DNA of 31,709 nucleotides from a virus, in IMG/VR virus record IMGVR_UViG_3300032235_000232, positions 1 through 31,709 of that record. One strand, 5' to 3'. Position numbers and translations under genes: made by a program. Every line of letters starts with the position of its first letter. The first letter of the stretch is position 1. The notes below the pieces were generated by a model, which did no database searches, was not told the DNA's origin, and saw nothing but the letters and a program-made list of their open reading frames with translations. Below are positions 3,347 through 31,462 of this stretch, piece by piece.

Positions 3347-3390
3347 GAAGATCCCCCGCCGTGGCCTATTGGCACTAGCGGGGGATCTTC
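3347..3390. terminator. large hairpin after the last late gene
   Basis: GAAGATCCCCCGC pairs perfectly with GCGGGGGATCTTC (13 pairs) around an 18-base loop that can itself fold. It stands 100 bases past the holin stop codon, at the end of the long leftward gene series. There is no T-run, so it may be a processing or protective 3' structure or need a factor to terminate. Confidence 0.6.
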
Positions 3391-3490
3391 GCAGACCGGC
3401 TCAGTTAGGTGTTGCGGGCTCAGCCCTTGAAGGTCTGATCGCTTCCATTCGCAGCAGCAGGGGACTGCGTGATCGAGCCGGGGATCTTGC

Positions 3491-3753: not shown

Positions 3754-4296
3754 TCATGGCTCCTGTGTTGATTGGGTGAGAACGGTGAAGGGTTCGCAGA
3801 CGCTCGTCGAGTGCAGCGCAGCTGCTCGCAGCGCCATCTCGACTCGAGCTACTGGGTCACCTTGTGTTGAGGCCAGTGAGCCAAGCGCTAGGTGATCGCC
3901 GCAGCCGATGGCTTCGTAGCCGAGCATCGAGCGCCCGACGTGGTAATCCTCGTCAATGCAGTAGAGAGCGCCCCGGTAGCCGACCAGGAACACTCCCCCG
4001 CTGTCTTCGTTGTCGCTGCTCTTGGCGAAGCCTCCCTGGTGGAAGAGCTTGCGGCAGGCGTCGACAAAGACGGTGCACATGTGGCTCATGTCGTCGTCGG
4101 TGATCTGCTTGGGCACCTTGAGTCGGTACTGCAGCAGCTGGCCCATGCGGAACGAGTCGCAGTAGCCGATCAGATACTCACCAACGGTGAACACTTTCGG
4201 CTCGGTGTAGCGAGTGATGCGTGTGTCTTCGACTGCAGCGGCGTCGCCGCCGATGATGACGGTGCCGTCATGCTCGAGGCCGACGATGCAGGTCAC
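3754..4296 (-). CDS. proteasome/HslV-like Ntn-hydrolase fold protein
   Basis: A 180-residue protein starting MTCIVGLEHDGTVIIGGD. If the initiator Met is removed, Thr becomes residue 1, Asp falls at 17 (GGDAAA) and Lys at 33 (TEPKVF). These are exactly the catalytic positions of proteasome beta subunits and HslV. Typical later elements are EYLIGYCDSFRMGQLLQY and YEAIGCGDHLALGSL, the latter like the GSG helix region. Size fits HslV (about 175). No unfoldase such as HslU is encoded nearby. It is coupled to a membrane protein upstream (ATGA) and the holin downstream. It could be a peptidase acting late in infection or another amidohydrolase; substrate unknown. Confidence 0.8.
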   Translation of the reverse strand: MTCIVGLEHDGTVIIGGDAAAVEDTRITRYTEPKVFTVGEYLIGYCDSFRMGQLLQYRLKVPKQITDDDMSHMCTVFVDACRKLFHQGGFAKSSDNEDSGGVFLVGYRGALYCIDEDYHVGRSMLGYEAIGCGDHLALGSLASTQGDPVARVEMALRAAALHSTSVCEPFTVLTQSTQEP

Positions 4297-4535
4297 GACT
4301 CACGCTTCCAGAGGTAGGCGTTGCGAAGGTGCACGACCATCCACACGCAGGCGAGGACGGTGAAGGCGGGCAGCGGTTGAGGTCCGAGCGTTGAGTAGGC
4401 GAGAAAAGGCACGCCGGTCAGTGATGCGGTCAGGCACCATCCCCACCAGATGCGACGCTCGATGACGAGCGCGTAGACGCCGAGGCCAGCCAGATCGCAG
4501 GCGAGTATCAGCCACGACCAGACCTGCTCACTCAT
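4293..4535 (-). CDS. small membrane protein, three predicted spans
   Basis: An 80-residue protein with hydrophobic segments at about residues 5-20, 30-45 and 52-69, ending with basic LRNAYLWKRES. It begins at ATG 4535-4533, eight bases before the upstream gene ends, and ends in an ATGA overlap with the Ntn-hydrolase gene. Position between endolysin and holin suggests a lysis accessory protein or a second holin-like protein, but no family is recognised. Confidence 0.65.
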   Translation of the reverse strand: MSEQVWSWLILACDLAGLGVYALVIERRIWWGWCLTASLTGVPFLAYSTLGPQPLPAFTVLACVWMVVHLRNAYLWKRES

Positions 4536-4890
4536 CTTCGAGTTCGTCGAGGAAAGCAACCAGCGACTCATCCATTGCTTCGTCGCTGGCGTCTGACCAG
4601 ACGGCGTAGAGACAGTCGGCGTAGCCGGCGAGGTCGACGATTGAGTCACGCACCATGTCGGCGGTGAACTGCTGATCGAGTGCGTTGCCGATGCGTGAGA
4701 GTTTGACGCTCAACATGAAAGCAACTGCCTCAGGCACGCTGAGAGTGACGCCAGTGATCGCTTCAAAGATCTCGGCTGTTCGGGAGTAGTCCACGCTTGG
4801 GTGGTGGTACAGCGCACCTCTCGGGCCGTGGACAAGTGCGTTGGCTTCGGCGGTGACTGAGTCCCAAAGTGGTCCCGGTTGAGTGTCCAC
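4528..4890 (-). CDS. DUF6378-like phage protein
   Basis: A 120-residue protein. The region from about residue 20 to 95 (HGPRGALYHHPSVDY, then a helix with SVPEAVAFMLSVKLSRI, then DSIVDLAGYADCL) has the order seen in DUF6378 phage proteins, a family of unknown role. GTG at 4890-4888 is chosen because GGGAGG stands five bases before it; the frame upstream lacks conserved sequence. The C-terminus is strongly acidic. Its place among lysis-region genes is unexplained. Confidence 0.65.
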   Translation of the reverse strand: MDTQPGPLWDSVTAEANALVHGPRGALYHHPSVDYSRTAEIFEAITGVTLSVPEAVAFMLSVKLSRIGNALDQQFTADMVRDSIVDLAGYADCLYAVWSDASDEAMDESLVAFLDELEDE

Positions 4891-4913: not shown

Positions 4914-5726
4914 TCAGTAGATGTGAGCGGTGAACTTGGCGAGGCTGACGCCTTCGTAGCGTCGGCACAGATAGTCGAGGCTGACGAACATGGGGTCGTA
5001 GCTGCCGTCTTCGACCTGGTGCTTGACGATCACGCCACGCCAGTGAGCGTTGCCTTGCGGCCCCTTGTAATCTTCGTTATGTAAATAACAAGCGCCGGCG
5101 ATGAGACCGTGATGGCTTCGACCGGCGACGAACCTGATGGCGTAGTCAAGTGTCTGCTGGTGGCCCATTGTGAAGGTGTGGCCGATCTGTTTGAGTCGAC
5201 CTGCCGCTGCGCCGCCCAATGGGCGGCCACTCATCGGCTGGACATAAACATGGCAGTAGCCGACACCATCGATGAACACTGGCTCGAGGTACCGATGCAC
5301 CTTCCAGCCGTGGGCTTGATAGTTGAGATCGTCGGTGGAGATGAGGCCGTGCAGTTTGGGATCATCGTTGGTCGCCCGGTTGATGCGGTCCTCATGATTG
5401 CCGAGCGTCAGATGCAGCTCGGGCTTGTAGAGCTTGTCCTTCACCTTGCGCTGGTGATCGTTGAAGCGCTCAAGCGGTGCGCACAGAATGTCGAAGGCTT
5501 CGTTGGCTGCTTCGATGTCATCGTTGTAGCGGCGACCCTCGAAGGATCGCTTCCCGATGTCGTAACTGCTGAGGCTTGGCATGTCGGCATGGTCGCCAAG
5601 GTGCACGATCACGTCGGGCTTGCGCTCGATGATGTAGGCACCGATCCACTCGAGGTGGGCAGTCGGGACTCCTGGCTTGGCTTGCGTGTCAGGAATGACT
5701 AGGTGCGTGCGCGTTGAATCAGACAT
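4914..5726 (-). CDS. calcineurin-like metallophosphoesterase
   Basis: A 270-residue protein starting MSDSTRTHLVIPDTQ. Metal-binding motifs appear in family order: D13-x-Q (PDTQ), GD45H (VIVHLGDHADMP), LTLGNHEDR in the middle, and GHQ/SHHG toward the C-terminus. Such phage enzymes hydrolyse phosphomono- or diesters; the substrate (nucleotide, nucleic acid or other) cannot be told. ATG 5726 is chosen because the conserved part starts there; the ribosome site (GGGCGA) is weak. It lies between lysis genes, so it may be a late accessory gene. Confidence 0.85.
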   Translation of the reverse strand: MSDSTRTHLVIPDTQAKPGVPTAHLEWIGAYIIERKPDVIVHLGDHADMPSLSSYDIGKRSFEGRRYNDDIEAANEAFDILCAPLERFNDHQRKVKDKLYKPELHLTLGNHEDRINRATNDDPKLHGLISTDDLNYQAHGWKVHRYLEPVFIDGVGYCHVYVQPMSGRPLGGAAAGRLKQIGHTFTMGHQQTLDYAIRFVAGRSHHGLIAGACYLHNEDYKGPQGNAHWRGVIVKHQVEDGSYDPMFVSLDYLCRRYEGVSLAKFTAHIY

Positions 5727-5754: not shown

Positions 5755-6084
5755 CTACCAGCGACGCTTGCCGCGATGGTGCACAGCCTCATGGCGGTGC
5801 AGCTCGTCGGTGACAGCGTCGAAGCGTGCGTCGACCTTGGCGTCGACGGCACGAACATCGCCGCCGATCTGCTTCACGTCGCCGATCAGTTCGTCGAAGC
5901 GTTCAGCGTTGGCGCGCGCGTTCTGGTCGTGCTGGTCACGGTTCTCGGTGCGCAGCTTTACGATCTGCACGACGAGAGTGGTGATGGCTCCGAGCACAAG
6001 TGTGATGCCGGTGAGGATTGCGACCCACTCGGCAGCGCCGAAGCCGGGACCGTCGCTGATGGCCGTCGAGGCTTGGGCGAGCAT
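5755..6084 (-). CDS. membrane-anchored coiled-coil protein (DUF2746-like)
   Basis: A 109-residue protein with one strong span at about residues 20-42 (WVAILTGITLVLGAITTLV), followed by a charged helix rich in heptads (KLRTENRDQHDQNARANAERFDE) and a His/Arg-rich end. This architecture matches DUF2746 proteins found beside endolysins in actinophages and thought to take part in lysis. It follows the endolysin by six bases, so the two are surely cotranscribed. Confidence 0.7.
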   Translation of the reverse strand: MLAQASTAISDGPGFGAAEWVAILTGITLVLGAITTLVVQIVKLRTENRDQHDQNARANAERFDELIGDVKQIGGDVRAVDAKVDARFDAVTDELHRHEAVHHRGKRRW

Positions 6085-6090
6085 GACGAG

Positions 6091-6735
6091 TTACTTCTTG
6101 GAAGCGTTAATCGAAGGCACCAGACCGAAGTTGCCGAGGATGGCAGGGTCAACGTCGCCGATCATTGTGATGCCAGCCTGCACTGCTGAGGCGTAGGCGT
6201 CAGCGTCGAGGTGCACGGCAATGTTTCCTGGCTGGGTGATTCGATAGACCGCACCGTCACGGGGGTCACGAATGAGAGCGTCTTTCACGTCGTCCTCCTC
6301 AGGACTTGGAGTTGGTGTGTCGTATTCGGGGAATGCAACCTCGGCGATGCCGCCGCCGTTGAATGGGTGCCAGAGTCGCTGAACTCGTGAGCCGTTGACG
6401 TTGCCGTTGATAGCGGTGACTCCATTGGCGTCGACGCTTTCAACCATTGCGATGTGGTCGTAGCCGCCTGGTGTTGAGTTCCACTCAAAGGCGATGAGCG
6501 CACCAGGACTCGCAGCGCGCGCGTCGTACGAGGTGCGACCCTGCGCTCGGTAGTAATCAAAGTGCGCCGACACCCATGCGAAGTGAGTCGGGATGCCAGC
6601 AGCAGTGAGGCAGTAACTCTGGAAGATGTCGCACCAAGCGGTGCCAGGTGCTGCTGGATACCAAGCCCAGAAGCGCTGGCCACCTTCGCCGAGGAAGCTG
6701 CGCTCAATGTCGAGAACCTCGTCAACGGTTGCCAT
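6091..6735 (-). CDS. endolysin, CHAP-domain peptidoglycan hydrolase
   Basis: A 214-residue protein. The N-terminal 130 residues carry a CHAP amidase/peptidase: nucleophile C35 in GTAWCDIFQSYCLTAAG, H94 in GGYDHIAMVE, and an Asn/Asp-rich strand (AINGNV, about 109-113) for the third residue. A 12-residue Pro/Glu linker leads to a C-terminal segment of about 65 residues (DPRDGAVYRITQPG) that probably binds the wall. It has no signal peptide, so release through the holin is expected. The ATG overlaps the upstream TAA by one base. The DUF2746-like gene follows. Confidence 0.85.
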   Translation of the reverse strand: MATVDEVLDIERSFLGEGGQRFWAWYPAAPGTAWCDIFQSYCLTAAGIPTHFAWVSAHFDYYRAQGRTSYDARAASPGALIAFEWNSTPGGYDHIAMVESVDANGVTAINGNVNGSRVQRLWHPFNGGGIAEVAFPEYDTPTPSPEEDDVKDALIRDPRDGAVYRITQPGNIAVHLDADAYASAVQAGITMIGDVDPAILGNFGLVPSINASKK

Positions 6736-27362: not shown

Positions 27363-27562
27363 TAGATGTCCCCGTGGTGGTCGATGGTGCTGGTGTGTGT
27401 CTCAACTACTGCTCGGCAGTCGTTGCAGCGGTAGGTCAAGCGATCGCGCGTGCGACCGTCGTGGCCGAAGTCGGTGAGCGGCAGATAGCGCCAGCACTTC
27501 GCGCAGCGCTTTGTCTCGTCGGCGTCGAAAGCTGTGAGGAATGCGTCGAGGATCTCGCCCAT
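27362..27562 (-). CDS. small zinc-ribbon protein
   Basis: A 66-residue protein with CAKCWRYLPLTDFGHDGRT and YRCNDC: two CxxC pairs separated by about 20 residues with Leu-x-x-Phe between. This is the zinc ribbon common in phages and in HNH-associated proteins, but no HNH residues follow. ATG 27562 overlaps the stop of the Rpf-like gene (TGATG), and its TAA overlaps the next gene. Probably nucleic-acid or protein binding. Confidence 0.6.
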   Translation of the reverse strand: MGEILDAFLTAFDADETKRCAKCWRYLPLTDFGHDGRTRDRLTYRCNDCRAVVETHTSTIDHHGDI

Positions 27563-28095
27563 CAGAGCCAGCCAAAGCGTCGACTGCAGCCAGGCCATGC
27601 GCCGTAGCCGGAACTAGCTAGGACTCGCTCAGCGATGTCGATCTGTTGTTCTCGGCTTGCTTCCCACGGGTGAGGTGCGAACTCTCCCCCGCCGAATGAC
27701 AGCCAGGTCGAGTAGCTGCGCTGGTGCATAAACTGCAGACCGCCGCCGAAACCGTTGCCGGTGTTCGCTGACCAGTTGCCGCCTGTCTCGCACTGTGCGA
27801 GTTGATCCCAGCGACTGCCGTCGCCTACGTCGTAGTTCGGTGCCGTTCGTGGCGCAGCTGCGGTCGTCGTTGTCGTAATCGAGACCAGGTAAGCGTCGAG
27901 GTCGGCGAGGGCTTGGCCGGCAGCGGCGTGGAAGTCATAGCCAGCAGCTGTCGCTGCATCAAGTGTGAGCGGTGGCGTCTGTTGCGCTTCTGCTGGTGCG
28001 CTGCAGCGTCCCAGCGCAAAGGCTGCGCCGAGTAGGGCGATCACAGCGACGCATCCTGCGGCGGTTCTTCGGTGGTCAATTCGGGCTTCATCCAT
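27562..28095 (-). CDS. Rpf-domain secreted cell-wall lytic enzyme
   Basis: A 177-residue protein. A basic n-region (DHRRTAAG) and hydrophobic segment (about 12-29) form a signal peptide or anchor, followed by a Thr/Ala linker. Residues 95-177 are the resuscitation-promoting-factor fold: WDQLAQCETGGNW with catalytic E103, NTGNGFGGGLQF, and a closing Cys (C102 and C170, the usual disulphide). Such enzymes cut the glycan backbone. ATG 28095 has GAGGA eight bases before and gives the charged signal region; GTG 28044 (overlapping a TGA) is an alternative. It lies among early genes, far from the lysis cassette. Confidence 0.8.
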   Translation of the reverse strand: MDEARIDHRRTAAGCVAVIALLGAAFALGRCSAPAEAQQTPPLTLDAATAAGYDFHAAAGQALADLDAYLVSITTTTTAAAPRTAPNYDVGDGSRWDQLAQCETGGNWSANTGNGFGGGLQFMHQRSYSTWLSFGGGEFAPHPWEASREQQIDIAERVLASSGYGAWPGCSRRFGWL

Positions 28096-28226
28096 CGTGC
28101 TATTCCTCGGTTCTTTCTGGTGCAAGGTGCGCAAAGCACGCCAAGCACTGGTCGGGGTGTCGAGTAGGCGTCACCGCAGATCGGGCAGCGCCAGTTGTTG
28201 CTCAGTGGCTGAGTGCGTGTCGCCAT
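28041..28226 (-). CDS. small zinc-finger protein
   Basis: A 61-residue protein with CPICGDAY and CAPCTRKNRG, two CxxC pairs about 18 residues apart, and an acidic tail. It overlaps the Rpf-like gene by 55 bases and the preceding gene by 25. No strong ribosome site. Probable gene in the early series; function unknown. Confidence 0.5.
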   Translation of the reverse strand: MATRTQPLSNNWRCPICGDAYSTPRPVLGVLCAPCTRKNRGIARWMKPELTTEEPPQDASL

Positions 28227-30854: not shown

Positions 30855-31199
30855 TTAGATGGCGACGTAGTTGCCGCGCAGCTTGCGCTTGTAGGCGTTG
30901 TTGGCTTCGGTGCAGTGCTCGCACCGGCAGCCCGCGTTGTATTTCGCTCGGCTGCCGTGCTTGGATTTGTTCGGGATGATCTCGCGGCGCTTGCGCTCTT
31001 CGGTGATCTCTTTGCCAGCGATGCCCGCCCAGACGCCGTAGCGCTCAGGGTTGCGGCTGATGAAGTCCAAGCACTGCTCAATCACCGGGCAGCTCGCGCA
31101 GATTGCCTTTGCGCGCGCGACGCCTTCCCAATCACCTCGCACCGGGAACATCACGTCGGTGAGTCCTTTGCACGCCGCTCGATCAGACCAGTGGCTCAC
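30855..31199 (-). CDS. whiB: WhiB-family iron-sulfur transcription regulator
   Basis: A 114-residue protein. The WhiB domain has the four cluster Cys C10, C34, C37 and C43 (AACKG, ICASCPV, EQC) and the GVWAG turn (55-59), followed by the basic ERKRRE. An added C-terminal tail (81-110) has HGSRAKYNAGCRCEHC, a Cys-rich motif shared with the HTH protein at 26572-27171. GTG 31199 overlaps the upstream TGA. Phage WhiB proteins bind host sigma factor and can alter host gene expression and superinfection; this is the family role, not shown here. Confidence 0.9.
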   Translation of the reverse strand: MSHWSDRAACKGLTDVMFPVRGDWEGVARAKAICASCPVIEQCLDFISRNPERYGVWAGIAGKEITEERKRREIIPNKSKHGSRAKYNAGCRCEHCTEANNAYKRKLRGNYVAI

Positions 31200-31462
31200 A
31201 GTTCGGCCATGCCTTGGTGATGGGTGACAAGGTGCATCTGCACCTGCTCGGTGAGCGCTTCGTACTGATCGCGCCACCAGGTGGCAGCAAGATTTTCGTC
31301 GCTGCCTTCGGGCTGCTGAATTACTCGCTCAAGTTCTGAGCCGAGTCGCTTGGCCGTGTTCTTCCACAGCTCAATCTCAACGGCGTTGCGCTGCAGCTGC
31401 ATCGCCTGAGCGACGATGGTCTGCTGCATCTCTTTGGTGTTGGCGCGTCGGAAGATCCTCAC
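31196..31462 (-). CDS. coiled-coil protein, unknown
   Basis: An 88-residue helical protein (EMQQTIVAQAMQLQRNAVEI, then ELWKNTAKRLGSELERVIQQ). GTG 31462 overlaps the TGA of the preceding gene (GTGA) and is preferred to the GTG 12 bases earlier. Its stop overlaps the WhiB start. No family recognised. Confidence 0.6.
   Translation of the reverse strand: MRIFRRANTKEMQQTIVAQAMQLQRNAVEIELWKNTAKRLGSELERVIQQPEGSDENLAATWWRDQYEALTEQVQMHLVTHHQGMAEL

Follow-up and report, generated by a model that had tools for sequence, protein, structure and literature searches.

The window analysed here is the whole stretch of 31,709 nucleotides of the IMG/VR virus record IMGVR_UViG_3300032235_000232. Its late region consists of co-directional, overlapping genes with the holin in the last position. 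The gene of interest encodes a protein of the Ntn-hydrolase type (Ntn protein) and is found on the minus strand, a point on which the original prediction had been silent. The features of this region are, from the upstream end:

6091..6735, minus strand: CHAP-domain endolysin (PF05257, 1.5e-7; phrog_21825 endolysin, 1.7e-11)
5755..6084, minus strand: small membrane/coiled-coil protein, holin- or spanin-like (weak matches to phrog_1009 and phrog_920)
4914..5726, minus strand: metallophosphoesterase (phrog_221, 1.8e-57)
4528..4890, minus strand: DUF6378 protein (PF19905, 3.7e-9)
4293..4535, minus strand: protein of 80 amino acids with three membrane spans read from the sequence (phrog_2421/phrog_14697, no assigned function)
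3754..4296, minus strand: proteasome-like (AAH-type) Ntn hydrolase gene, GTG start at 4296, stop at 3754, 180 amino acids
3491..3757, minus strand: r1t-type holin (PF16945, 2.2e-19; phrog_443 holin, 1.6e-20)
3347..3391, minus strand: strong hairpin after the holin (z -6.5; 0 of 200 shuffles as stable)

The start of the Ntn gene overlaps the upstream three-span gene in a GTGA at 4293-4296 and its stop overlaps the downstream holin gene in an ATGA at 3754-3757. The predicted placement between a three-span protein and the holin is correct, and there are overlaps on both sides. The hairpin has no T-run and was not called by the terminator scan; it is the probable end of the late operon. Besides the endolysin, the window encodes a second cell-wall enzyme, an Rpf-like transglycosylase at 27562-28134 (PF06737, 1e-29).

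The amino terminus of the Ntn protein is well fixed, since at most one extra codon is open upstream in frame and the relatives in the same clade share the start position, with either ATG or GTG. After removal of the methionine the protein begins with TCIVGL and has no propeptide. The following residues and regions were located in an alignment of 68 relatives:

4291..4293, minus strand: codon of Thr1, the nucleophile after Met removal (T in 68 of 68; the first codon after the start in the relatives inspected)
4243..4245, minus strand: codon of Asp17 (D in 68 of 68)
4195..4197, minus strand: codon of Lys33 (K in 68 of 68)
4138..4155, minus strand: signature S47-F-R-M-G-Q52 (S47, R49, G51 and Q52 invariant in the 68; Ser at the position of the oxyanion-hole Gly47)
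3991..4038, minus strand: predicted pore-loop region spanning residues 86-101, acidic overall (the window protein has a net charge of -2, and the mean of the 68 is -1.7)
3901..3903, minus strand: codon of Cys131, within an invariant G-x-G (aligned with HslV Ser125 (GSGG) and proteasome Ser129)

Thr1, Asp17 and Lys33 occupy three of just 11 invariant columns, at a mean column identity of 44%. They stand at the exact proteasome positions, as had been proposed from the sequence, and none of the 68 relatives lacks Thr1 or Lys33. The oxyanion hole at position 47 uses the backbone NH rather than the side chain. The profile alignment against the PDB showed that the HslV of T. maritima likewise has a serine here, so Ser47 was not read as a loss of activity. 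Gapless numbering against the proteasome beta subunits would place Arg49 in the S1 pocket, and the invariance of this residue suggests that acidic P1 residues may be preferred. Together, the serine for glycine at position 47 and the invariant Arg49 imply that the enzyme may deviate from the proteasome in its specificity or chemistry. Position 131 is occupied by Cys in 56, Ser in 9, Ala in 2 and Val in 1 of the 68 sequences. The change is conservative, with Cys or Ser in 65.

The median dN/dS of the Ntn gene was 0.13, which indicates purifying selection and rules out a pseudogene in the window. Deviating copies were seen at other loci. An otherwise typical clade member (L025:2661-3179) has lost the six residues EPKVFT, Lys33 included, in frame and is either a natural inactive variant or an assembly error. 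Four Rhizobium loci (L189, L192, L194 and L195) have a homologous gene with an identical in-frame stop at residue 38 and an open frame for the remainder. At L082:4451-5570, two Ntn genes lie in tandem, and their products share 30% and 48% identity with the window protein. Both products keep the threonine after the methionine, the aspartate and the lysine, and they may form a two-subunit ring.

The predicted structure agreed with the proposed Ntn fold. AlphaFold2 modelled an alpha-beta-beta-alpha sandwich with a pLDDT of 93.8 and a pTM of 0.90. The pLDDT fell to 80 at residues 91-100, inside the predicted pore-loop region. The model is that of a compact subunit without insertions, which has both helices 48-56 and 68-86, ends with the elements H147-161 and E170-175 and lacks the C-terminal S12/H5. 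In Foldseek, the best solved match was BPH with a TM score of 0.83-0.84, followed by HslV, and the proteasome was also matched. When the family profile was compared with the PDB, HslV (E 1.4e-6), the bacterial proteasome beta subunit (3.6e-6) and BPH (3.7e-5, full length) were found. A phmmer search of the PDB with the single window protein gave no match, in contrast to the alignment profile. A chance motif is ruled out by the profile, the structure and the conservation.

Among the PHROG families the protein was assigned to phrog_1040, 'peptidase HslV family' (2.7e-19). Relatives were found in 204 phage records, the best with 42% identity, and the nearest bacterial relatives occur in Frankia, Azospirillum, Rhizobium and Streptomyces. 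AAH and PPH have been described as group I proteasome homologs that are present in phages as well, without a co-occurring AAA+ protein (Fuchs, Alva and Lupas 2021; PMC8665760). Since the distribution of the bacterial relatives fits AAH, we strongly infer that the Ntn protein is a member of this group, an assignment made from distribution and architecture. The enzyme family is already known in phages and bacteria. The original suggestion of a new use of this fold was accordingly overtaken by the 2021 description and by the 204 phage records. The bacterial AAH loci showed no consistent neighbour partner. Within these loci (L117-L196), FdhD adjoins the gene in the Frankia relatives, and AIM24 occurs five times among the pooled neighbours.

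The record was searched for an AAA_2 unfoldase. None was detected, either in the phage itself or in those closely related to it, whereas 14 of 14 control genomes were positive, which bears out the prediction that no unfoldase is encoded nearby. The phage was identified as an actinophage by a WhiB-family regulator at 30855-31277 (PF02467, 2e-15), by its terminase, which is nearest to those of the Pontimonas phage phiPsal1 and the phiC31 group, and by its holin, for which the relatives in isolated phages come exclusively from mycobacteriophages. A TerL search of 397 Actinomycetota genomes gave a single match, with 42%, and the Ntn protein was present in one of the 397, namely the Frankia genome that served as the centre. 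Related Ntn proteins exist in the actinophages DSL-LC01 and Gordonia phage Daredevil.

The conservation of the cassette was then followed in the clade of the window. The gene order is kept as endolysin, small membrane protein, metallophosphoesterase, DUF6378, three-span protein, Ntn gene and holin. Of 36 contigs, 35 have the holin as the next gene after the Ntn gene. The three-span protein immediately precedes the Ntn gene in 31 of the 34 contigs showing it. The exceptions hold inserts, some of them collagen-like, and inserts around the Ntn gene were seen in L030, L031, L032 and L079. In L005 and L022 an insert between the metallophosphoesterase and DUF6378 encodes a product that by eye resembles a P-loop sulfotransferase.

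In the tree, the cassette group lies to one side of a branch that has a support of 95/59; its sister is a head-side lineage, and the two together are supported by 100/100. This topology is most simply read as a single entry of the Ntn gene into the cassette. The sister lineage (L036 and L077) has the gene adjoining the capsid gene, and no match to the holin of the window was found near it. A count of neighbour families at 31 other phage loci was headed by DNA ligase, head protease, portal and terminase, and no holin family stood among the first 25. In further phages the gene lies near metabolic genes, in some of them Sir2, MazG, NMN or PhoH genes. Pontimonas phage phiPsal1, the nearest by terminase, has a cell-wall peptidase and a holin with no Ntn-type gene annotated between them. 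The linkage to the holin is genuine, but it is one of position only and belongs to a single clade of freshwater phages; a family-wide association with lysis genes is absent in the other phages examined. Of the proposal that the peptidase is wired into the lysis cassette, the position was upheld, in 35 of 36 contigs. Beyond the position it was not, as the linkage belongs to one clade and the cassette also holds metabolic-type genes and inserts.

Taken together, the Ntn protein is probably a phage-borne member of AAH and PHROG 1040, an unfoldase-independent, BPH-like threonine peptidase that is expressed late as accessory cargo. The host methionine aminopeptidase would expose Thr1, and the subunits would assemble into a ring like that of BPH or HslV, which would enclose the active sites. 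Small or unfolded polypeptides may pass the acidic pore loop without ATP, and Thr1 would attack the peptide bond with Lys33 as the base. The gene may have entered between the endolysin and the holin in one phage lineage as accessory late cargo. Its substrate could be a host or a phage protein and need not belong to lysis. The varying placement across the family, next to head, terminase, portal, head protease, DNA ligase and metabolic genes, was counted for accessory cargo, as were the inserts around the gene in the four contigs and phiPsal1, whose lysis region has no such gene annotated. Counted against it was the near-constant holin adjacency within the clade, which could point to a functional tie with lysis. 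Although epoxomicin reacts with BPH, standard assays of BPH revealed no peptidase activity (PMC5777263); the residues alone are therefore not enough to assume catalysis.

The most probable of the alternatives, though an unlikely one, is a peptidase for host takeover or counter-defence that cleaves a particular host protein late in infection, where the holin adjacency merely sets the timing. The persistence of the gene as accessory cargo in diverse phages and the nearby Sir2, MazG, NMN or PhoH genes in some of them would fit, but there is no host target or defence system to point to, and the position is late for counter-defence. Distinctly unlikely is a dedicated late-acting lysis peptidase, which would trim or destroy the holin, an antiholin, the endolysin or a virion protein and in this way give lysis its proper timing. 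Its case is the short overlap with the holin as the next gene in nearly all clade contigs and the shared strand with the overlapping lysis genes. Against this, the linkage is seen in one clade only; in the sister lineage the neighbours of the gene are head genes, and in other phages they are terminase, portal or ligase. In addition, phiPsal1 has its cell-wall peptidase and holin without the gene, and the interval accepts inserts and also carries the metallophosphoesterase and DUF6378. In the literature found, no phage proteasome-like protein was connected with lysis and no function was reported for any phage AAH. A lysis role for the Ntn peptidase is possible but unsupported. It is more doubtful still that a self-standing phage threonine peptidase, expressed late by coupling to the holin, has a lysis or cell-envelope protein as its cleavage target and contributes to setting lysis in freshwater actinophages.

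As connectase illustrates, a proteasome-like Ntn enzyme can also be monomeric. A monomeric amidohydrolase or ligase of this kind instead of a ring peptidase is highly improbable for the Ntn protein: the invariant S47, R49 and Q52 do separate the family from the proteasome subunits, but the protein is compact, without insertions, and its fold is closest to the ring-formers BPH and HslV. The clade, with a compact and well conserved protein in a small phage, lends itself well to the question of how phages use a proteasome-like peptidase that lacks an unfoldase.

HslV (ClpQ), the source of the PHROG name, shares the fold and the catalytic residues with the Ntn protein. It works with HslU, whereas the phage has no HslU-like AAA_2 protein, and its Ser125 position is a cysteine in the Ntn protein. 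The curated NCBIfam HslV models did not match the window protein and matched 7 of the 68 relatives weakly. HslV proper is ruled out by the lack of HslU and of a model match. PPH is likewise a group I homolog carried by phages, but it has about 140 residues and lacks helix H2, and is ruled out by the 180 residues and both helices of the Ntn protein. Members of PHROG 1040 such as that of Moorella phage MTATph1 (42% identity) are homologous over the whole length and have the same catalytic residues, but in the annotated neighbourhoods of isolated phages examined they are never beside a holin, unlike in the Ntn clade. The closest solved fold is that of BPH from Thiobacillus and Cupriavidus (PDB 5ovs, 5ovu). 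Like the Ntn protein it has an N-terminal Thr1, no propeptide, an acidic pore loop and no known unfoldase partner; in BPH the start methionine is removed, which exposes Thr1 (PMC5777263). The identity is about 16-20%, and a 14-mer ring has been demonstrated for BPH, whereas the ring of the Ntn protein is a proposed one. With AAH, the Ntn protein has in common the compact group I subunit without insertions, the relatives in Frankia, Azospirillum, Rhizobium and Streptomyces, the occurrence in phages and the lack of a co-occurring AAA+ protein. In the 2021 paper no AAH was found in Actinobacteria-specific phages (PMC8665760); the Ntn clade appears to be such a case, and it would extend the range of AAH and fill this gap.
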